A DNA stretch of 64,000 bases from Caldimonas mangrovi (GTDB lineage Bacteria > Pseudomonadota > Gammaproteobacteria > Burkholderiales > Burkholderiaceae_C), in the NCBI RefSeq assembly GCF_023721835.1, contig NZ_JAMKFE010000015.1, positions 83,766 through 147,765 of the forward strand, given 5' to 3'. Positions 22,886 through 64,000 of the stretch are shown in pieces. The position numbers were made by a program, and so were the translations under genes. Under the pieces are notes generated by a model. The model was not told the origin of the DNA. It saw only the letters and a list, made by a program, of their open reading frames with translations, and did not search any database. The number at the start of each line of letters is the position of its first letter. The stretch's first letter is position 1.

Positions 22886-24307
22886 ATGCTCACGCTGCAC
22901 CGAGCCTCCTTCCGCCAGTTGCTGCTGGTCGCCTTTCTGCTGATCGCCGCCCTGCTCGGTGCAGTGTCGCTGCGCGGGCTGTTCACGCTCGAACGGTTGA
23001 TGGCGCAGTCGCGCGCCGGGGCTGAACAGGCGGTGCAGCTGGCAGCGCAGGTACAGACCCTGGCAGATCGCAGCGTCGGATTGGAGCGCACCGCGCGGCA
23101 GTACGTGGTGCTGGATGACAAGGTGCTGCGTGAGCGTTTCGAGGACGACGCCGAAGCCGCCGAGACGGTGCTGGCCCGCTTGGCTGACAACGGGCTGCCG
23201 CCCAAGCTGGCTGACGAGTGGCGCACGCACCTGGCCGGCATCCGCGAGCAGATGCAGGGCCCGCGCGCCACCGCACGCCTGCGCGAGCAGACGCTGAGCC
23301 TCGCTTTTCGCGAGCTGGCCGACATCAACACCGCGGTGGCCGACCAGATCCGGCGCGCGAACGAAAAGCGCAACCGCGAACTGCAGGACGAACTCGAGGC
23401 CAGCCGGCTCGAACTCGGCCGCCAGGTGCTCGCCGCGATTGCGGTCGCGGTGGTGCTGGCCTTCGGTTTCGGCCTGTGGCTGGCGAGGCCGCTGAAGCGG
23501 TTGGAGCGCGCCATCGTCGGTCTGGGTGAAAACCGGCTCGATCAACCGATCGAGATCCAGGGCCCGGCCGACGTGCGCCTGGTCGGGCGGCGACTCGATT
23601 GGCTGCGGTTGCGACTGGCGGAACTGGATGCCGACAAGGCCCGTTTTCTGCGGCACATCTCCCACGAGCTGAAAACACCGCTGGCAGCGCTGCGCGAAGG
23701 CGTTGCGCTGCTGGAGGACGGTGTCGCCGGAACGCTGACCGACAACCAACGCGAGATCGCACGCATCCTGCACCACAACACCGGCGTGCTGCAACGGCAG
23801 ATCGAGGACCTGCTACGCTTCAACGCCGCAGCGTTCGAGGCGCGCCGGCTGTTGCGCCGTCGCACTGAACTGCTCGCGCTGCTGCGCCAGCTCGTCGAAG
23901 AACAGAAGCTGCAATGGCAGGCCAAGCAACTGCGCGTGGAGCTGAATGGCGAGCCGCTGCACGCCGAAGTCGACCAGGACAAGCTCGGCACGGCGATCGG
24001 CAACCTGCTGTCCAACGCGATACGCTTCAGCCCGCCGGGCGCTACCATTCGGTTTTCCTTGACCCGGCACGCCGGCCTCGCCTGCATCGACATCGTCGAT
24101 GAAGGCCCGGGCGTGTCGCCTGCCGACCGTGCCCGGGTGTTCGAGCCCTTCTACCGCGGTGAACGCCAGCCCGAAGGTGCCGAGCGCGGTACCGGCGTGG
24201 GCCTGTCCATCGTGCAGGAGTACGTCGCTGCCCATGGCGGCCGGGTCGAACTGCTGCCGAATGCTCCTGGTGCCCATTTCCGTATCGAGTTGCCTCATGC
24301 CGCCTAG
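22886..24307 (+). CDS. glrK: Sensor histidine kinase GlrK (QseE-like)
   Basis: The 473-residue protein has a transmembrane helix at about 10-30, a helical periplasmic region to about 178, a second helix at about 181-201, a HAMP region, then the kinase core with phospho-His260 in FLRHISHELKTPL and ATP-binding boxes NLLSNAIRFSP, DEGPGVSPADR and GTGVGLSIV. The gene order kinase, QseG-like lipoprotein, sigma-54 regulator is that of glrK-qseG-glrR, known to respond to envelope conditions in enterobacteria. Its end overlaps the lipoprotein gene by 11 bases. The actual signal here is unknown. Confidence 0.9.
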   Translation: MLTLHRASFRQLLLVAFLLIAALLGAVSLRGLFTLERLMAQSRAGAEQAVQLAAQVQTLADRSVGLERTARQYVVLDDKVLRERFEDDAEAAETVLARLADNGLPPKLADEWRTHLAGIREQMQGPRATARLREQTLSLAFRELADINTAVADQIRRANEKRNRELQDELEASRLELGRQVLAAIAVAVVLAFGFGLWLARPLKRLERAIVGLGENRLDQPIEIQGPADVRLVGRRLDWLRLRLAELDADKARFLRHISHELKTPLAALREGVALLEDGVAGTLTDNQREIARILHHNTGVLQRQIEDLLRFNAAAFEARRLLRRRTELLALLRQLVEEQKLQWQAKQLRVELNGEPLHAEVDQDKLGTAIGNLLSNAIRFSPPGATIRFSLTRHAGLACIDIVDEGPGVSPADRARVFEPFYRGERQPEGAERGTGVGLSIVQEYVAAHGGRVELLPNAPGAHFRIELPHAA

Positions 24308-24890
24308 GCCCGCCGCACTTTTCTGTTGCCTGCTGTGGATCATCACGGGCTGCGCCCCGTTGCCCGAAGTGACCGAAGTGCGCCAGGTCAAGGTGCCGGT
24401 GCGCGTCGACGTGCCCGTGCCGATGATGGACCCGGTCGACCAGGCCAACCGCCATGCCATGCGCTATGCCGAGCGGGTACGCGGCCTGCCGTTGCCGGAA
24501 CTGCAGCAGGAGATCGTGCGGTTGAACGAAAGCCCGGTGACGCCGAAATCGACACTGGAGCTCGCGTTCGCACTCGGTCAGACGCGCGCACCCGGCGACT
24601 TGCAAAAAGCCGTCGGTCTGCTCGAAGGCCTGTTGCGCTCCACCGAGCCCGAGGCCGCCCCCTGGCAACCCATGGCTCGCATGACTCTTGCAAGGTTCTT
24701 GGAAATGCGCCGGCTCGAGGAACAGCTCGACAAGCAGAACCAGCAGTTGCGCGACAGCCAGCGCCGCATCGACCAGCTCAACGAGAAGCTCGAGGCACTG
24801 AAGGCCATCGAGCGCAGTCTGGCGCCGAGGCCGGTGCCCGCAGCACCGGCCTCGGCACCGGTGCCCGGTACCCGACCCACCCCGCCATGA
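24297..24890 (+). CDS. qseG: QseG-like outer-membrane lipoprotein with coiled coil
   Basis: The 197-residue product starts inside the end of glrK and has a lipoprotein signal (LLWIITGC, with Cys19 as the lipid site). Residues about 138-178 (RRLEEQLDKQNQQLRDSQRR onward) form a coiled coil, and the tail is Pro/Ala-rich. In enterobacteria QseG lies between glrK and glrR and contacts the GlrK sensor from the outer membrane. Position and layout argue for the same job here, although sequence likeness in this family is low. Confidence 0.8.
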   Translation: MPPRPAALFCCLLWIITGCAPLPEVTEVRQVKVPVRVDVPVPMMDPVDQANRHAMRYAERVRGLPLPELQQEIVRLNESPVTPKSTLELAFALGQTRAPGDLQKAVGLLEGLLRSTEPEAAPWQPMARMTLARFLEMRRLEEQLDKQNQQLRDSQRRIDQLNEKLEALKAIERSLAPRPVPAAPASAPVPGTRPTPP

Positions 24891-24921
24891 CATCACGCAC
24901 CAACGACCCCAGGAGACTCCG

Positions 24922-26280
24922 ATGAGCGCCCATGTACTGGTCGTCGACGACGACCCGGACATGCTGCGGCTGCTGTCGATGCGGCTCGGTGCGGCCGGCT
25001 ATCGTGTGACGGCGGTCGAGACTGCCGAGGCCGCCCTGACGCAGATCGCTGTCGAACGCCCGCAGCTTGTCGTCAGCGACGTGCAACTGCCCGGCAAGGA
25101 CGGGCTCGCCCTCTATGACGAGATCCGTGCCCGGCATCCGGCGTTGCCCGTGATCCTTCTGACCGCGCACGGCACCATCCCCGACGCGGTCGAAGCGACC
25201 TCGCGCGGCGTGTTCACTTATCTGACCAAGCCGTTCGACGGCAAGGAGCTGCTCGACAAGATCGCGCAGGCACTGTCTCTTTCGGTGCCGGCCGGGCAAG
25301 AGGCGCCGGCCTACGAGGCCTGGCGCGAAGCCATCGTCAGCCGCTCGAACCGCATGGCCGATCTGCTGGCGGAAGCCAAGCTCGTGGCCGCCTCGGACGC
25401 GAGCGTGCTGATTCGCGGCGAAAGCGGCACCGGCAAGGAGCTGCTCGCGCAAGCCATCCACCAGGCCAGTTCGCGGGCCAGCCGGCCCTTCGTCGCGGTG
25501 AACTGCGGCGCCATCCCCGAGGCGTTGCTCGAGTCCGAGCTGTTCGGCCACGTGAAGGGGGCGTTCACCGGCGCGGTCACCAACCATCGAGGGCTGTTCC
25601 AGGCCGCGGACGGCGGCACCTTGTTTCTGGATGAAATCGGCGACATGCCCGTTCCGCTGCAGGTCAAGCTGCTGCGGGTGCTGCAGGAACGCTCGGTGCG
25701 CCCGGTCGGCTCGGCCCAGGCCGTGCCGGTCGACGTGCGCATCATTTCGGCCACGCACCGCAACCTCGACGAAGCCATGGCCGAAGGGCTGTTTCGCGAA
25801 GACCTCTACTACCGGCTCAATGTCGTCTCGTTGACGTTGCCGCCGCTGGCCGAGCGGCGCGAAGACATCCCGCTGCTGGCCAACCACTTCCTCGCCAAGC
25901 TCGCGGTCAAGTACGGCCGGCGCCTCAACGGTTTCGCCCCGGACGCCCTGAAAGCACTGGCTACCGCCTCGTGGCCGGGCAACATACGTCAGCTCTATAA
26001 CGTGGTTGAGCAGGTGTGCGCGTTGGCGACCACCCCGCTGGTACCGCTGGCGCTCGTGCAGCGCGCGCTGCGCGTCCCCAGCGTCGAAGTGGTCAGCTAT
26101 GCCGAGGCGCGCCACCGCTTCGAGCGCGACTATCTGGTCGGGCTGCTCAAGCTCACCGACGGCAACGTCGCCGATGCCGCCCGACTCGCCGAGCGCAACC
26201 GCACCGAGTTCTACCGGCTGCTGCAAAAGCACGGCCTGACGCCCGGGCTGTTCCGCGGCGATTCGCCTGTCGCCGAATAG
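24922..26280 (+). CDS. glrR: Sigma-54-dependent response regulator GlrR
   Basis: The 452-residue protein has a receiver domain (about 4-120) with the acidic pocket VVDDD and phospho-Asp53, an AAA+ sigma-54 activator domain (about 135-370) with Walker A GESGTGKE (166-173), the sigma-54 contact loop GAFTGA (213-218) and LFLDEIGDMP, and a C-terminal Fis-type helix-turn-helix (about 410-440, GNVADAARLAERNRTEFYRL). It should bind DNA upstream of sigma-54 promoters when phosphorylated by GlrK. A sigma-54 promoter and palindromes of the GlrR type lie directly behind it, before mdoG. Confidence 0.92.
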   Translation: MSAHVLVVDDDPDMLRLLSMRLGAAGYRVTAVETAEAALTQIAVERPQLVVSDVQLPGKDGLALYDEIRARHPALPVILLTAHGTIPDAVEATSRGVFTYLTKPFDGKELLDKIAQALSLSVPAGQEAPAYEAWREAIVSRSNRMADLLAEAKLVAASDASVLIRGESGTGKELLAQAIHQASSRASRPFVAVNCGAIPEALLESELFGHVKGAFTGAVTNHRGLFQAADGGTLFLDEIGDMPVPLQVKLLRVLQERSVRPVGSAQAVPVDVRIISATHRNLDEAMAEGLFREDLYYRLNVVSLTLPPLAERREDIPLLANHFLAKLAVKYGRRLNGFAPDALKALATASWPGNIRQLYNVVEQVCALATTPLVPLALVQRALRVPSVEVVSYAEARHRFERDYLVGLLKLTDGNVADAARLAERNRTEFYRLLQKHGLTPGLFRGDSPVAE

Positions 26281-26285
26281 CGACC
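26268..26285 (+). promoter_or_regulatory. Second, imperfect GlrR-type site
   Basis: TGTC-N10-GACC begins in the last codons of glrR. It differs from TGTC-N10-GACA in one base and lies 66 bases (a little over six helical turns) upstream of the perfect site. It may be a weaker activator site for the mdoG promoter. Confidence 0.45.
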
Positions 26286-26333
26286 GACTTTTTCGTTCTA
26301 AATCAATAGCTTAGCGCTCTGGGCGCCGCCTCC

Positions 26334-26351
26334 TGTCGCCACTTGGCGACA
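26334..26351 (+). promoter_or_regulatory. Candidate GlrR binding site upstream of mdoG
   Basis: TGTCGCCAC-TTGGCGACA is an inverted repeat with eight of nine pairs matching, and fits TGTC-N10-GACA, the GlrR recognition pattern as I recall it from enterobacterial glmY/glmZ promoters. It is about 96 bases upstream of the sigma-54 promoter, a normal distance for an enhancer site. Confidence 0.7.
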
Positions 26352-26446
26352 TTTTCGAGGGGGCGGCTGGCTCCTAGGGTTTCCCTGGGGCATGCAACCC
26401 CTTGTAAGCACGCCTAAGTTGTTGATCTTCCAGATCTTTTCCCTGT

Positions 26447-26461
26447 TGGCACAGCCATTGC
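26447..26461 (+). promoter_or_regulatory. Sigma-54 promoter of mdoGH
   Basis: TGGCAC-AGCCA-TTGC matches the -24/-12 consensus exactly, with GG and GC ten bases apart. Transcription should begin near 26473, about 70 bases before the mdoG start. The sigma-54 activator gene glrR ends 166 bases upstream. Confidence 0.85.
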
Positions 26462-26545
26462 GAACTGCGTCACGAACCGGGGAGTGCAGCGAGCTTCGCA
26501 GCCTCCTCGCAGATCAGCAGACGATTCAGGGAAAGGACTCTGCAC

Positions 26546-28072
26546 GTGCCCTTGTGGGACCGGAACGCCGGTTGGTGGCGTCTTGTCATGTGGTCGACGG
26601 CCGCGTTCGCGCTGCCCGGCCTCGCGAACGCCTTCGGCTTCGATGAACTGAGCGAGCGTGCGCGCCGCCTGGCGCAGCAGCCCCATCGCGCGTCGGCATC
26701 GACGCTGCCGGGGGAGTTGCAGGCGCTGAGCTACGACCAGTACCGCGACATCCGCTTCAAGCCCGAACGCGCGTTGTGGCGCGGCGAGGGCCTGCCCTTC
26801 GAGGTGATGTTCTTCCACCTCGGCAAGCAGCAGACCGAACCCGTGCTCATCAACGAAATCACGGCCCAGGGCGTGCGTCACGTCGGCTTCGATCGCGACA
26901 ACTTCGACTACGGCAAGAATCGGCTCTCGCCGCAGACGTGGGGCGATGTCGGCTTCGCCGGCTTCCGGGTCCACTTCCCGTTGAAGCAGGGAAATTACAA
27001 AGACGAACTGATCGTCTTCCTCGGTGCAAGCTATTTCCGCGCACTCGGCGCCGGGCAGCACTACGGCCTGTCGGCGCGCGGGCTGGCGATCGACACCGTC
27101 GGCGGCGAGCGAGAGGAGTTTCCGCGCTTCAAGGAGTTCTGGATCCGCAAGCCCGAGCGCGGCGCGGCCTCGCTGACCGTTTATGCGCTGCTCGACTCGC
27201 CGCGCGCCGCCGGCGCCTGGCAATTCGAAGTGAAGCCCGGCGAACAGACGCTCGTCGAGGTGCGTTCCAGGCTCTACCTGCGTGACGGCGTCGCGACGCT
27301 CGGCCTGGCGCCGCTGACCAGCATGTACATGTTCGGCGAGAACCAGCCGCACCCCGAGGATTTCCGCCCCGAGGTGCACGACTCCGACGGCCTGATGGTG
27401 GCCACGCGGGGTGGCGAGTGGCTGTGGCGCCCGCTGGTCAACCCGCGCCGGCCCCTGACCACGTCGTTCTCGATGCAGGGCCTGCAAGGTTACGGCCTGA
27501 TGCAGCGGGACCGGTCCTTCGGCAGCTATGAAGACACCGAGGCTCGCTACGAAAAGCGCCCCAGCACATGGATCGAGCCGGTCGGCGACTGGGGTCCGGG
27601 CCGCGTCGAACTGGTGCAGCTGCCGACGCCCGACGAAACCAACGACAACATCGTCGCCTACTGGGTGCCGGAGCGGCTACCCGCTGCCGGGCAGCCGCTC
27701 GAGCTGCGCTATCGCATGCGCTGGCAGGGCGACGCCCAGCAGCGCCCGCCCGGCGGCTGGGTCACACAGACCCGCTCGGGCCGCGGTTTTCAGCAACTGG
27801 CGAAGAACGAGCACCAGTTCATCGTCGATTTCACCGGCCCCAAGCTCGCGGACCTGCCCTTGCGGGCCGAGCTGCAGGCCATGGTCACCAGCGGCCCCAA
27901 CGGCCGCATCACCGAACGCAACGTCTACCGCAACGAGGCCAACAACTCGTGGCGCATGGCGGTGCGCGTCCAGCAGCTCTCAACGGCCGAGCCCGTCGAG
28001 TTGCGGGGCTATCTCCAACACGGCAACGACATCCTGACCGAGACATGGAGCAACATCATTCCCCCCCAATGA
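26546..28072 (+). CDS. mdoG: Periplasmic glucan biosynthesis protein MdoG/OpgG
   Basis: MdoG shapes osmoregulated periplasmic glucans in the periplasm. The 508-residue product starts at a GTG after AAAGGA and has a signal peptide ending about ALPGLANA (residue 29). The mature part shows the family blocks LSYDQYRDIRFKPERALW, LGASYFRALGAGQHYGLSAR, LAPLTSMYMFGENQPH and LQGYGLMQRDRSFGSYEDTE. It is the first gene of the mdoGH operon; mdoH overlaps its stop by four bases. A sigma-54 promoter and GlrR-like sites precede it, which suggests control by the adjacent GlrK/GlrR system. Confidence 0.95.
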   Translation: MPLWDRNAGWWRLVMWSTAAFALPGLANAFGFDELSERARRLAQQPHRASASTLPGELQALSYDQYRDIRFKPERALWRGEGLPFEVMFFHLGKQQTEPVLINEITAQGVRHVGFDRDNFDYGKNRLSPQTWGDVGFAGFRVHFPLKQGNYKDELIVFLGASYFRALGAGQHYGLSARGLAIDTVGGEREEFPRFKEFWIRKPERGAASLTVYALLDSPRAAGAWQFEVKPGEQTLVEVRSRLYLRDGVATLGLAPLTSMYMFGENQPHPEDFRPEVHDSDGLMVATRGGEWLWRPLVNPRRPLTTSFSMQGLQGYGLMQRDRSFGSYEDTEARYEKRPSTWIEPVGDWGPGRVELVQLPTPDETNDNIVAYWVPERLPAAGQPLELRYRMRWQGDAQQRPPGGWVTQTRSGRGFQQLAKNEHQFIVDFTGPKLADLPLRAELQAMVTSGPNGRITERNVYRNEANNSWRMAVRVQQLSTAEPVELRGYLQHGNDILTETWSNIIPPQ

Positions 28073-30324
28073 GCCCCCGTGGCGATCTCACGCCGCGCCT
28101 GCCCAGCACCACTGCCGGGGCAAGCGCGCCGCCGATACGCCGCGCCTCGATGCCGGCACAACCGTGGCGCGGCTTCCTGCGCGGGCTGGTGGATGGCATC
28201 GCAGGCCTGTTCAGGCAGCGCTCCGGTCAGCCCGCCGCCCCCCTGTCGGGCTGGGAGCAGGCGGCCGTCGTGCGACGTCGTGTTTTCCTCGGGCTGATCG
28301 CGCTGTCGACCACCGTGGCCACGGCCCTGATGGCACAGGTGCAGCCGCCCTACGAGCACCCGGCGTTGCAGTACGGCCAGATCGCACTGTTCGCACTGCT
28401 GTTCGCGTGGGTGTCCGCTGGCTTCTTCACCGCGGCGATGGGCTTCGTCGTCATGCTGCGCGGCGACCGGCACTCGTTGTCCCGGCACGACGTGGTGCAC
28501 GACCCGGTGCGGGCCGACGCGCGCACCGCGGTCATCATGCCGATCTGCAACGAGCACGTCAGCACGGTTTTCGCCGGGCTGCGCGCCACCTGCGAATCGC
28601 TCGCGGCGACCGGCGCGCAACGCCTGTTCGACATCTACATTCTGTCGGACAGCAACGACCCCGACATCCGCAGCGCCGAACTCGCGGCCTGGGGCGAGCT
28701 GCGCGCGACGCTGGGCGACAACGCACGCGTCTTCTACCGTTGGCGCCAGCGCCGCACCAAGCGCAAGGCCGGCAATGTGGCCGACTTCTGCCGTCGCTGG
28801 GGCAGCAACTACCGCTACATGGTGGTGCTCGATGCCGACAGCGTGATGAGCGGTGATTGCCTGCTGACCATGGTGCGCCTGATGGAAGCCAACCCGAAGG
28901 CCGGCATCATCCAGACCGCGCCGCAAGCCGTCGGCCATGCCACCGTGCACGCGCGTTCACAGCAGTTCGCCAGCCGCGTCACCGGCCGGCTGTTCACGCT
29001 GGGCATGCAGTACTGGCAACTGGGCGAGTCGCACTACTGGGGCCACAACGCGATCATTCGTGTCGAGCCCTTCATGAAGCACTGCGGCCTGGCACCGTTG
29101 CCCGGGCGTGGCGCGCTGAGCGGCGAGATCATGTCGCACGACTTCGTCGAGGCCGCGCTGATGCGTCGCGCCGGCTACCACGTCTGGCTGGTGACCGATC
29201 TGCCCGGCAGCTACGAGCAGCAGCCGCCCAACCTGATCGAGGAACTGCAACGCGACCGCCGCTGGTGCCAGGGCAACCTGCAGAACGCACGCCTGATCGC
29301 CGAGCCCGGGCTGCACGGCGTGCACCGCGCAATGCTCGCGACCGGTGCGATGGCATACGGCTCGGCGCCGCTGTGGCTGGCCTTCGTGGTGCTGGGCGCC
29401 GCGCTGTGGCTGACTGGCGGGCTGCAGGCCAGCGTGACGGCCTTCGGCATGCCGCTGGCCGTCGGTGGCTTGTGGGCCGGCACGCTGACGATGCTGGTGC
29501 TGCCGCGCGTGCTCGGCATACTCGGGATCGTCCTGCGCCAAGAGCAGCGCTTCTTCGGGGGCACCGGCGCACTCATCAAGAGCGCGTTCATCGAGGCCGG
29601 GCTGTCCGTGTTGCAGGCGCCGGTGCGCATGGTGGCGCACAGCATGTTCGTGTTGGCCGCCCTGACCGGTTGGCGCATCGACTGGAAATCGCCCCCGCGC
29701 GAAGCCCAGTCGATCGCGTGGCGCGACGCCGGCCGCCGGTTTGCGCCGAGCTGCGCGGTGGTGCTGCTCGCAGCGCTCGCCATCGCGGTCGTCAACCCCG
29801 CCGCGGTGCTGTGGATGGCGCCCATCGCGCTGCCGCTGCTGTTCGCGGTGCCGCTGGCCGTCTTCACGAGCCAGGAACGGCTCGGCGAACGCGTGCGCTC
29901 GTACGGCCTGCTGACCATCCCGGAGGAAAGCTGGACGCCGGCGGTATTGCGCCACGCCTGGGCTTACGCACGCCGCGAGACGCCGCCGGCCCGCTGGGCC
30001 GACGTGCTGCGCGACCCCGGCCTGTTCGACCTGGTGCGCAGCGCCATGGGTGCGCGCCACACCGGCCACGGTGGTCGGGCGGTTGCTCGCCGACGGCTTC
30101 TGCTCGACCTGTCGCCCGAGCGCAATGCCGACAGCCTCGCGCCGATGGAGCGCATGCGCTTCCTGAGCGAACCGCAAAGCCTGGAACAATTGCGCGTGCG
30201 TCACAGCGTGCTGCGCGGTCAGGTCTTCGGCCGCCAGCTCGCACGCGAACTGGAGTTGCCGCAGACGCACCATGCGCTCATCGTCAACGGCTTGCGGGCT
30301 GCGGGTGGCCGAGCGGTGCACTGA
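28069..30324 (+). CDS. mdoH: Glucans biosynthesis glucosyltransferase MdoH/OpgH
   Basis: MdoH is the inner-membrane enzyme that polymerises glucose from UDP-glucose for periplasmic glucans. The 751-residue protein has two N-terminal membrane helices, a GT2 domain with TAVIMPICNE, VLDADSVMSGD, the acidic SHDFVEAALMRRAG and the RRWCQGNLQ acceptor motif, and several C-terminal membrane helices. The start overlaps the mdoG stop (ATGA). The very N-terminal 55 residues are polar and may carry the regulatory region found in E. coli OpgH. Full length and intact. Confidence 0.95.
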   Translation: MSPRGDLTPRLPSTTAGASAPPIRRASMPAQPWRGFLRGLVDGIAGLFRQRSGQPAAPLSGWEQAAVVRRRVFLGLIALSTTVATALMAQVQPPYEHPALQYGQIALFALLFAWVSAGFFTAAMGFVVMLRGDRHSLSRHDVVHDPVRADARTAVIMPICNEHVSTVFAGLRATCESLAATGAQRLFDIYILSDSNDPDIRSAELAAWGELRATLGDNARVFYRWRQRRTKRKAGNVADFCRRWGSNYRYMVVLDADSVMSGDCLLTMVRLMEANPKAGIIQTAPQAVGHATVHARSQQFASRVTGRLFTLGMQYWQLGESHYWGHNAIIRVEPFMKHCGLAPLPGRGALSGEIMSHDFVEAALMRRAGYHVWLVTDLPGSYEQQPPNLIEELQRDRRWCQGNLQNARLIAEPGLHGVHRAMLATGAMAYGSAPLWLAFVVLGAALWLTGGLQASVTAFGMPLAVGGLWAGTLTMLVLPRVLGILGIVLRQEQRFFGGTGALIKSAFIEAGLSVLQAPVRMVAHSMFVLAALTGWRIDWKSPPREAQSIAWRDAGRRFAPSCAVVLLAALAIAVVNPAAVLWMAPIALPLLFAVPLAVFTSQERLGERVRSYGLLTIPEESWTPAVLRHAWAYARRETPPARWADVLRDPGLFDLVRSAMGARHTGHGGRAVARRRLLLDLSPERNADSLAPMERMRFLSEPQSLEQLRVRHSVLRGQVFGRQLARELELPQTHHALIVNGLRAAGGRAVH

Positions 30325-30380: not shown

Positions 30381-31055
30381 ATGAGCCAACTCACCCGCTG
30401 GCTGCGTGAAAACCGCGGCCTCATTGCTTTCCTGCTGTTGTTCGGGTTGTTCAGAACGGCCGTGGCCGACTGGAATCCCATCCCTTCGGGTTCGATGCGT
30501 CCGACACTGCGAGAAGGCGACGTCGTCTTCGTCAACCGGCTCGCCTACCAGGTCAAGTTGCCCCTGACCGACATCGTGCTGGCCCGCACCGGCGAGGTGT
30601 CGCGTGGCGACATCGTCACTTTCTCGTCACCCGAGGACGGCACCCGCCTCATCAAGCGCGTGGTCGGTCTGCCCGGCGACGTGGTTTCGATGCGTGGCAA
30701 GGTGTTGTCGATCAACGGCCTGCCTCTCGGCTACCGGACGACCGGCACCGTGTTGGAGCCCGTCGCGGGCCGGCAGGTGCCGGCAACGCGGCTGCATGAG
30801 CAGCTCGGCGAGCACCAACATGCCCTGCAATGGCTCGACGGCCTGGCCACCGTGCCCGATTTCGGCCCGGTGACGGTACCGGCCGATGCCTACCTGGTGC
30901 TCGGCGACAACCGTGACGACAGCGCCGACTCTCGTTACTTCGGCTTCGTGCCACACCACCTGCTGATCGGACGCGCAGAGCGCGTGCTGGTGTCTGTCGA
31001 CCTGCTCGGGCGCTGGGCGCCGCAATTCGCACGCTTCGGGATGAGGCTGCAATAG
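30381..31055 (+). CDS. lepB: Signal peptidase I
   Basis: This 224-residue protein removes signal peptides at the outer face of the inner membrane. It has one N-terminal helix (about 13-28), catalytic Ser38 in PSGSMRPTL and catalytic Lys92 in IKRVVGLPGD, then the LVLGDNRDDSADSRYFGFV box. With only one membrane helix it is shorter than the usual proteobacterial LepB and is not next to lepA or rnc, so it may be a second signal peptidase. It follows mdoH by 56 bases and has GGGGGAG before its ATG, so it may be read from the mdoGH transcript. Confidence 0.92.
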   Translation: MSQLTRWLRENRGLIAFLLLFGLFRTAVADWNPIPSGSMRPTLREGDVVFVNRLAYQVKLPLTDIVLARTGEVSRGDIVTFSSPEDGTRLIKRVVGLPGDVVSMRGKVLSINGLPLGYRTTGTVLEPVAGRQVPATRLHEQLGEHQHALQWLDGLATVPDFGPVTVPADAYLVLGDNRDDSADSRYFGFVPHHLLIGRAERVLVSVDLLGRWAPQFARFGMRLQ

Positions 31056-62586: not shown

Positions 62587-64000
62587 ATGGCCACCACAAC
62601 TTCCACCGTGCTCGGCAAGGTCAGTGCCATTACCGGCAAGGCGTTCCTCAAGCTGCCGAACGGGCAGATGCGCGAGCTGAAAATCGGCGACGTCGTGCGC
62701 GAAGGCGACGTGATCGTCGTGACCGGTGAGGGCCGGGTCGAGATCGCTGACGAGAGCGGCGCCGTCTACGTGCCGCGTACCAATGAGCCGTTGACAGTGG
62801 CCGGGCTGGAGGCGGGCAAGCCCGAGCGGGTGACCGTCGACGAAATCGAGCGCGCCATCACTGCAGTGGACCAGGGTGGGTCTGAGGAAGATGCGCCTGC
62901 CGCGGGCTTGACCGCAGACGGTGCCGGCAGCGGCCTGGCGCCGGGACTGCGGGTCGACCGGGTGAATGAATCGGTCGACGGCACGGAAATCGAAGCAACC
63001 GCGCCCGCCGCCGGCGTTGAGCCCGCGGTCGTCGAAACCGGCAATGGGACCGCGGGGGACGCGGCCGACGAGGCCGACGCCGTCGATACCACGCCTCCTG
63101 CCGTCAGTGTGGCTGCACCGGCGCTGACCAACGATGCCACCCCCAGACTCGGCGGCACCACCGACCTGCCCGACGGCTCAACCGTGACGCTGGAAGTCAC
63201 GGATGCGGCCGGGGCTGTTCATACATTCACCACGACGGTGGTCGGCGGAGCTTATTCCGTCGATGTGCCCACGCCACTTGCCGACGGCGGATACACCGTC
63301 CGGGTCACTGCGCAAGACGCCGCGGGCAATACCAGCACCGCAGCAGCGGCTGGAACGATCGACACGACAGCTCCCGCTCTCACGATTGACACTCCCGCGC
63401 TGACGAACGACAACCGGCCGACCCTCTCCGGCACGACCGCCCTGCCTGACGGATCGGTCGTTGCGCTGGCCGTCACTGATGCGTCGGGTGCGGTACAGAC
63501 GTTGAATGCGACGGTGTCAGGTGGCGCCTACTCGGTCCAGGTGCCGGTCGCGTTGGTAGACGGCGGCTACACGGTGACCGCAACGGCCAGCGATGCCGCT
63601 GGCAACACTGCGAACGCCAATGACGCTGGCAGCATCGATACGACCGCTCCTGCGCTGACGATCGACGCGCCGACATTGACGGGCGACGCCACGCCGACGA
63701 TCAGCGGGACAGCCGACCTGCCGAACAACTCGACGGTCACGATCACGGTCACCGACTCCGCCGGTGCCACCCAGACGCTCACCGCCACTGTCACCGGTGG
63801 TGCCTACTCGGTCACCGTGCCGATCGCTCTGGCAGAAGGCAGCTTCACCGTGGTCGCATCTGCTGCGGATGCCGCGGGCAACACAGCGACCGCGAACGAT
63901 GCCGGCTCGCTGGACACCACCGCGCCAATCTTGACGGTCGACGCCCCCGCGTTGACCAACGATTCGACACCGACCATCACAGGTACGACGGACCTGCCCA
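62587..64000 (+). CDS. Giant LapA/BapA-like biofilm adhesin, N-terminal part, cut by the right edge
   Basis: The frame runs from ATG 62587 to the window end without a stop (471 codons seen). Residues about 1-100 match the retention module of LapA-type adhesins (STVLGKVSAITGKAFLKLPN, LKIGDVVREGDVIVV), which plugs the outer-membrane channel and keeps the protein on the surface. Two PAAG motifs follow (104-107 and 140-143), like the di-alanine site cut by the LapG protease. From residue 167 there are Ig-like repeats of exactly 92 residues (276 bases), starting DTTxPxxxxxxPxLTxDxxP. The protein is secreted by the adjacent LapB/LapC pair. Confidence 0.93.
   Translation, partial: MATTTSTVLGKVSAITGKAFLKLPNGQMRELKIGDVVREGDVIVVTGEGRVEIADESGAVYVPRTNEPLTVAGLEAGKPERVTVDEIERAITAVDQGGSEEDAPAAGLTADGAGSGLAPGLRVDRVNESVDGTEIEATAPAAGVEPAVVETGNGTAGDAADEADAVDTTPPAVSVAAPALTNDATPRLGGTTDLPDGSTVTLEVTDAAGAVHTFTTTVVGGAYSVDVPTPLADGGYTVRVTAQDAAGNTSTAAAAGTIDTTAPALTIDTPALTNDNRPTLSGTTALPDGSVVALAVTDASGAVQTLNATVSGGAYSVQVPVALVDGGYTVTATASDAAGNTANANDAGSIDTTAPALTIDAPTLTGDATPTISGTADLPNNSTVTITVTDSAGATQTLTATVTGGAYSVTVPIALAEGSFTVVASAADAAGNTATANDAGSLDTTAPILTVDAPALTNDSTPTITGTTDLP
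63085..64000 (+). repeat. 276-base tandem repeats coding Ig-like adhesin domains
   Basis: Units start at 63085, 63361, 63637 and 63913, each exactly 276 bases apart; the fourth is cut by the window edge. Each codes for one domain with DTT(A/P)P, LT(N/G)D, DLPxxSxVT, GGAYSVxVP and DAAGNT. Copies differ at many third positions, so they are not recent duplicates. Confidence 0.92.

Follow-up and report, generated by a model that had tools for sequence, protein, structure and literature searches.

At sigma-54 promoters, DNA bending brings a phosphorylated activator from upstream sites to the polymerase, and ATP hydrolysis opens the promoter. The closest described system is the glmY promoter of Escherichia coli, a known GlrR/sigma-54/IHF promoter at which IHF assists QseF (PMC6075780, accessible part), and the consensus for QseF (GlrR) is TGTC-N10-GACA (PMC8745638, accessible part). 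The DNA upstream of glmY in E. coli MG1655 contains TGTCGCTTTCTGGCGACA, then an IHF consensus TAACTCATTGATT, the palindrome TGTCTCTTTTTAGCGACA 63 bases on and the promoter TGGCACAGTTACTGC 107 bases further, with a third palindrome located farther upstream. GlrR of E. coli has also been described to control the envelope-homeostasis gene rpoE via a sigma-54 promoter (accessible part of PMC6075780). Genes for osmoregulated periplasmic glucans, opgGH (mdoGH), are present in E. coli and Dickeya, and no sigma-54 or GlrR control of opgGH in these organisms was found in the accessible text of the literature searched. In E. coli, mdoGH was placed in the sigma-E regulon (PMC2731931) and opgG was listed with RpoE as activator (PMC10100675) in the accessible parts of both sources.

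The locus examined here is located in a 64-kb window (the whole stretch of DNA that was analysed, G000:C7:83766-147765) and consists of a glrK-like, a qseG-like and a glrR-type gene followed by mdoG and mdoH, all in one direction (Table 1). The GlrK-like product was 32% identical to E. coli GlrK over 425 aligned positions (E 1.6e-59) and included a HAMP region that scored just below the Pfam cut-off. The product of the second gene had no Pfam match and no significant similarity to E. coli QseG (E 0.09), and its identity as QseG is by position and lipobox, not by sequence. For the activator, the best NCBIfam model was GlrR with 620 bits (the runner-up, NtrC, reached 424), which is below the GlrR equivalog cut-off of 763 bits, and the product is therefore named GlrR-type; this cut-off serves annotation and was probably calibrated on proteins more closely related to E. 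coli GlrR. It was 58.7% identical to E. coli GlrR over 443 aligned positions, and an NRTEFY segment near the C-terminus was common to both. Pfam returned no helix-turn-helix match for the product; judged by eye, its putative DNA-binding region at the C-terminus is similar to that of the E. coli protein. Two copies of the sigma-54 gene are present in the genome. A signal-peptidase-like gene (Peptidase_S26, start placed by eye) at 30381-31055 on the same strand begins 56 bases past mdoH and may be co-transcribed with it.

Table 1. Genes and DNA sites of the glrK-qseG-glrR-mdoGH locus (positions in the window)
Feature	Position	Strand	Description
glrK-like sensor histidine kinase gene	22886..24307	+	HisKA and HATPase_c; start codon placed by eye
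qseG-like lipoprotein gene	24297..24890	+	Between glrK and glrR; in-frame lipobox (ITGC); start by eye
glrR-type sigma-54 activator gene (response regulator)	24922..26280	+	Receiver and sigma-54 activator domains (Pfam Response_reg, Sigma54_activat)
GlrR-type palindrome 1	26268..26285		TGTCGCCGAATAGCGACC; one mismatch to TGTC-N10-GACA; overlaps glrR stop codon
IHF consensus	26301..26313		AATCAATAGCTTA; exact; between both palindromes
GlrR-type palindrome 2	26334..26351		TGTCGCCACTTGGCGACA; exact TGTC-N10-GACA
IHF-like site	26415..26427		TAAGTTGTTGATC; one mismatch; before promoter
Sigma-54 -24/-12 promoter	26447..26461	+	TGGCACAGCCATTGC; exact TGGCAC-N5-TTGC
mdoG (opgG), predicted target	26546..28072	+	Pfam MdoG, 643 bits, E 5e-193; GTG start after GGGAAAGGA
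mdoH (opgH), predicted target	28069..30324	+	NCBIfam MdoH, 1047 bits against a cut-off of 829; 4-base overlap with mdoG

An initial annotation of this DNA had read an exact -24/-12 promoter before mdoG, an exact GlrR-type palindrome and a one-mismatch copy of it, located 96 and 162 bases upstream of the promoter, and glrR directly upstream of these elements. All of these readings, both distances included, agreed with the sequence, where the stop codon of glrR occupies 26278-26280. The IHF site located between the palindromes, the weaker one ahead of the promoter and the resemblance to glmY of E. coli were not part of that annotation. The site between the palindromes was the only exact match in the whole 64-kb window to what we take to be the IHF consensus, which was used for all IHF scans. 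The promoter is located 84 bases before the mdoG GTG codon, and a transcript start is predicted near 26473. A simple scan of 24900-27000 found no sigma-70 promoter, a result that says little because just 0.2 were expected by chance.

This arrangement resembles that upstream of glmY in the type of palindrome, the order of the sites, the IHF consensus between palindromes and the TGGCAC-type -24/-12 promoter, and the spacings were 66 bases from palindrome to palindrome and 113 from palindrome 2 to the promoter as compared with 63 and 107 at glmY. The window also has a putative counterpart of the glrK-qseG-glrR cluster of E. coli, with its QseG recognised by position. The E. coli element has a third palindrome and is followed by a small RNA gene, on the upstream side of glrK, whereas the window element follows glrR and precedes glucan genes. 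With the rpoE promoter of E. coli the locus would share GlrR control of an envelope-homeostasis gene, although the target there is a sigma factor. The two glucan genes are also those of the opgGH loci in E. coli and Dickeya. In the gap between opgC and opgG of E. coli, a scan for GlrR-type sites with up to one mismatch and for sigma-54 matches with up to two found neither. With E. coli mdoGH listed in the sigma-E regulon, any GlrR link there would be indirect.

Each motif taken singly is not rare, while the combination is. Promoter matches with up to one mismatch occurred 6 times in the window against 6.9 expected, and palindromes with up to one mismatch 31 times against 22 expected, a number reached in 3 of 100 shuffles. 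A second exact TGGCAC-N5-TTGC is located in the window at 62615-62629 on the minus strand. The whole genome contained 25 exact promoters and 71 exact palindromes, and an exact palindrome started within 200 bases upstream of three of the 25 promoters where 0.064 were expected (21 upstream regions were read, two promoters were inside the window and two were checked by coordinates against the list of palindromes). The composite, in which two palindromes precede a promoter, occurred once in this genome. The exact motifs gave just two other pairs within 200 bases, and neither is claimed as a target in a wider GlrR regulon. One lies upstream of the second rpoN copy, identified by a sigma-54 domain match (L031:2682-4561, G000:C1:52181-54060), with 184 bases from the start of the palindrome to the promoter. 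The other (L032:3143-3320, G000:C6:83642-83819) has inner bases unlike the GlrR consensus, and the reading frame behind it is presumably a D-amino-acid dehydrogenase gene (dadA). Palindrome-promoter pairs away from mdo genes were absent from the other eight genus genomes.

The sites were preserved above their surroundings in an alignment of five genus members (L001-L005), excluding the two GlrR-positive members that have mdoH only. Invariant columns numbered 14 of 18 in site 1, 11 of 18 in site 2 and 11 of 15 in the promoter, compared with 12 of 48 in the inter-site stretch, 20 of 95 in the stretch that separates site 2 and promoter, and 8 of 58 in the leader, or 61-78% against 14-25%. The two IHF stretches had 6 of 13 invariant columns each.

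When 399 genomes of the family were sampled, 74 contained the exact composite, always as a single copy, and none of the 399 contained its reversed form, which served as a control. All 74 copies sit behind glrR, usually directly and with 0.3-0.8 kb between in three, and 64 of them precede mdoG, or mdoH where no mdoG was found there. The commonest spacings were 67 bases from site to site, with most values at 66-67, and 112 from site 2 to the promoter. Their consensus was TGTCGCCga..aGCGACA for site 1 and tGTCGCc....gGCGACA for site 2, of which the GTCG and CGAC parts were imposed by the search pattern. An exact IHF consensus was located between the palindromes in 44 of the 74 genomes (0.10 expected from shuffles) and in the interval before the promoter also in 44 (0.28 expected), and 57 had at least one such site in the element.

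A relaxed scan allowing one mismatch per palindrome and one in the promoter was applied to the GlrR set of 113 genomes, made up of 112 found by search and G397, where glrR lies at a contig end. On the stretch read, mdo genes were downstream of glrR in 97 of these, and 93 of the 97 had a two-site element by the relaxed scan or as the exact composite. Five exact-composite loci were missed by the relaxed scan (L070, L071, L072, L090 and L102), and the four of them with mdo genes are counted in the 93. The exceptions were L016, which retains both palindromes with a weak -24, L228, L236 and L208. Among the sixteen GlrR genomes without mdo genes on the stretch read, eleven had a two-site element on the relaxed scan, L102 had the exact composite and four had none, namely L211 and L226, where mdoG is elsewhere, L229 and L235. 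When the 35 glrR flanks without the exact composite were considered, 28 contained the element on the relaxed scan and two-site elements appeared in none of 700 shuffles.

Named reference loci gave a similar picture. They were the 80 with the highest MdoH similarity out of 571 and included Aquabacterium, Variovorax, Acidovorax, Roseateles, Hydrogenophaga, Polaromonas and other genera, the nearest named relative among them being Aquabacterium sp. A7-Y (L123). At least 600 bases of upstream DNA were required, which left out L130, L160, L169 and L191, and 65-170 bases were allowed from site 2 to the promoter. Of the remaining 76 loci, 70 had the two-site element, four had one site and two (L167 and L202) had neither, although the named and sampled sets are not independent because many of the named loci were drawn from genomes that had also been sampled.

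Given the presence, order, spacing and conservation of these sites, their association with GlrR and the glmY-like layout, GlrR is likely to activate periplasmic glucan synthesis directly. We consider it highly probable that the region preceding mdoG is laid out like the glmY sigma-54 enhancer-promoter and that GlrR, as predicted from the sequence, activates mdoGH directly through it. Binding and activation by GlrR and a role for IHF at this element are what we infer. The two TGTCG-N8-CGACA palindromes would serve as binding sites for phosphorylated GlrR, and IHF would introduce bends into the DNA that separates them and into that preceding the promoter. The ring formed by GlrR would then act on sigma-54 RNA polymerase at TGGCAC-N5-TTGC and open the complex, so that the mdoGH message would start near base 26473. 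The signal would reach GlrR through GlrK and the QseG-like lipoprotein.

The length of the predicted leader bears on the possibility that the sigma-54 promoter chiefly makes a small RNA, as at glmY, with mdoGH expressed by read-through or separately. The E. coli element does precede a small RNA gene, and at 42 loci where mdoH comes first the gap between promoter and gene was 31-370 bases with a median of 174, leaving room in some. However, at 47 loci where mdoG comes first the extrapolated gene start was a median of 37 bases past the promoter, which is too short for an RNA of the size of glmY and suggests that the message likely begins just before mdoG; the corresponding gap in the window is 84 bases. 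No Rfam family reached threshold in the seven loci scanned. With the gap mostly too short and no Rfam match in those loci, a small RNA between promoter and mdoG was rejected as a candidate, and this explanation is regarded as very unlikely.

The occurrence of the element is tied to that of GlrR. GlrR was detected in 112 of the 399 genomes (E up to 1e-160) and MdoH in 136 (E up to 1e-100), with both in 100. Thirty-six genomes had MdoH without a GlrR match, and removal of G397 left 35. The DNA upstream of mdoH in these (L240-L274, mostly 3.3-3.5 kb) contained not even one palindrome with a promoter at the appropriate distance, on either strand, in any of the 35, while shuffles of the same stretches gave one palindrome and a promoter in 4 of 700 and the two-site form in none of 700. 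Thirty-three of the 35 stretches were informative, with 300 bases or more of DNA ahead of the first mdo gene (322 in L267), and L247 and L252 end before the mdoG start. Two genomes with distant MdoH matches of 37-38% away from the element (G290 and G353) are in neither the 35 nor the 97. Control of mdoH is probably different in genomes where it lacks the element and GlrR was not detected. Conservation of the promoter and palindromes in relatives had been set beforehand as a test able to refute the initial annotation, and both were kept, in 93 of 97 genomes as compared with 0 of 35 without detected GlrR. As genomes are related, such counts are not of independent events, and this applies to the contrast as well because GlrR and the element are clustered by phylogeny and the mdoH from genomes without detected GlrR is in most cases more distant. 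Within the genus, GlrR was present in seven of nine genomes and the same seven had a palindrome-promoter pair at their mdo genes. Of the two without GlrR, G007 had mdoG with no element in the 987 bases upstream and G005 had no MdoG match.

A sigma-54 activator other than GlrR could in principle bind the palindromes, given that GlrR binding at mdoG is read here from sequence and that the genome probably encodes further sigma-54 activators (164 candidate stretches at first look, not necessarily all of them activators). Against this, the palindrome has the QseF (GlrR) consensus given in the accessible part of PMC8745638, the C-terminal DNA-binding region of the window GlrR appears similar to that of its E. 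coli counterpart, and the element tracks GlrR across the family, so that another activator is judged highly improbable.

In a few genomes the element and glrR were apart. In G167 the glrR and mdoH genes were 51 kb apart and in G328 they were on separate contigs, and in both the element was found before mdoG (L238 and L239) with none behind glrR (L211 and L226). Rhizobacter sp. SG703 had the element before mdoG (L131) with glrR approximately 50 kb away on the same contig, where 1.5 kb on each side of glrR (L283) contained no palindrome or promoter within one mismatch. These three clear trans cases may represent one rearrangement. About 1.5 kb separated glrR from the element in G137, and the element adjoined mdoG. 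That the element stays with mdoG when glrR is elsewhere indicates that it is not simply a glrR terminator. In a rival reading, the 3' end of glrR would carry one or two intrinsic terminators whose hairpins are the palindromes, with an incidental or minor promoter match. This would fit the T-rich stretches that follow both palindromes and a scan of 24900-27000 that found two terminator-like sites against 1.7 expected by chance, one of them at 26269-26284, but it is extremely unlikely given the trans cases, the recurrence of palindromes, spacing, IHF sites and promoter in the manner of glmY, and the overlap of window palindrome 1 with the glrR stop codon. A metagenome bin labelled Thiobacillus contained mdoG with the element (L126) and, elsewhere in the bin, a GlrR of 65% identity with its own two-site element behind it (L284) on a contig other than that of L126; this is possibly a two-target case or a mixed bin.

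Returning to direct activation by GlrR, the initial annotation had proposed that GlrK/QseG/GlrR switches on glucan synthesis. The GlrR and sigma-54 part of this proposal is upheld by sequence evidence from the family counts and the glmY layout, and the upstream part is qualified by the 32% identity of GlrK and by a QseG assigned by position and lipobox. Glucan control had also been put forward as a new output of GlrR. Direct control does look new, while novelty does not extend to any link at all, since E. coli mdoGH is listed in the sigma-E regulon and GlrR activates rpoE. A literature search that lacked many subscription papers gave no previous description of mdo/opg genes being controlled by GlrR, QseF or RpoN, and none was found in the accessible parts of PMC2731931, PMC3162934, PMC12691602, PMC12316311 and PMC10100675. 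Clusters of qseEGF in betaproteobacteria were described in 2025 (PMC12691602), and the accessible part of that paper named no target there. The mdoGH genes are a concrete and widely conserved candidate target of GlrK/QseG/GlrR outside enterobacteria, which, if true, would tie the GlrR system directly to an envelope polymer. The element is amenable to a clean experiment in culturable genera, e.g. Variovorax and Hydrogenophaga.

Genes other than mdo were located behind similar elements. In fourteen relatives with no mdo match in the 1.5 kb behind glrR (L017-L030), twelve had at least one palindrome and a -24/-12 promoter, counting L019 with two promoter mismatches and L027 with a longer spacing. 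No palindrome and -24/-12 promoter were found behind glrR in L022, L025 and L009, and these three together with L229 and L235 had GlrR with no mdo genes and no element behind glrR. Of nine proteins encoded behind the element, three were BON-domain proteins, one was a glycine-zipper protein and five had no Pfam match; the BON-domain and glycine-zipper proteins follow a GlrR/sigma-54 element in L017, L018, L021 and L029, where no mdo gene is located. The presence of a similar element before BON, glycine-zipper and other small proteins suggests that GlrR probably had an output position of this kind before the mdo genes came to occupy it; the position would be old in the order and would have passed to the mdo genes in one lineage. 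A short DNA module would thus have been kept while the gene downstream of it changed. More tentatively, an ancient GlrR/IHF/sigma-54 enhancer module may have remained nearly unchanged across gamma- and betaproteobacteria while the gene behind it was swapped. It would now drive a small RNA gene in E. coli, genes for small envelope proteins of the BON or glycine-zipper type in several relatives of Burkholderiales type, and glucan genes in the lineage of the window. Osmoregulated periplasmic glucans would then be governed by a circuit of lipoprotein and kinase that senses the envelope and is perhaps reset by its own glucans. A second GlrR-like activator of 58-60% identity was encoded besides the mdo-adjacent copy in three genomes (G181:C10, G247:C3 and G289:C7).
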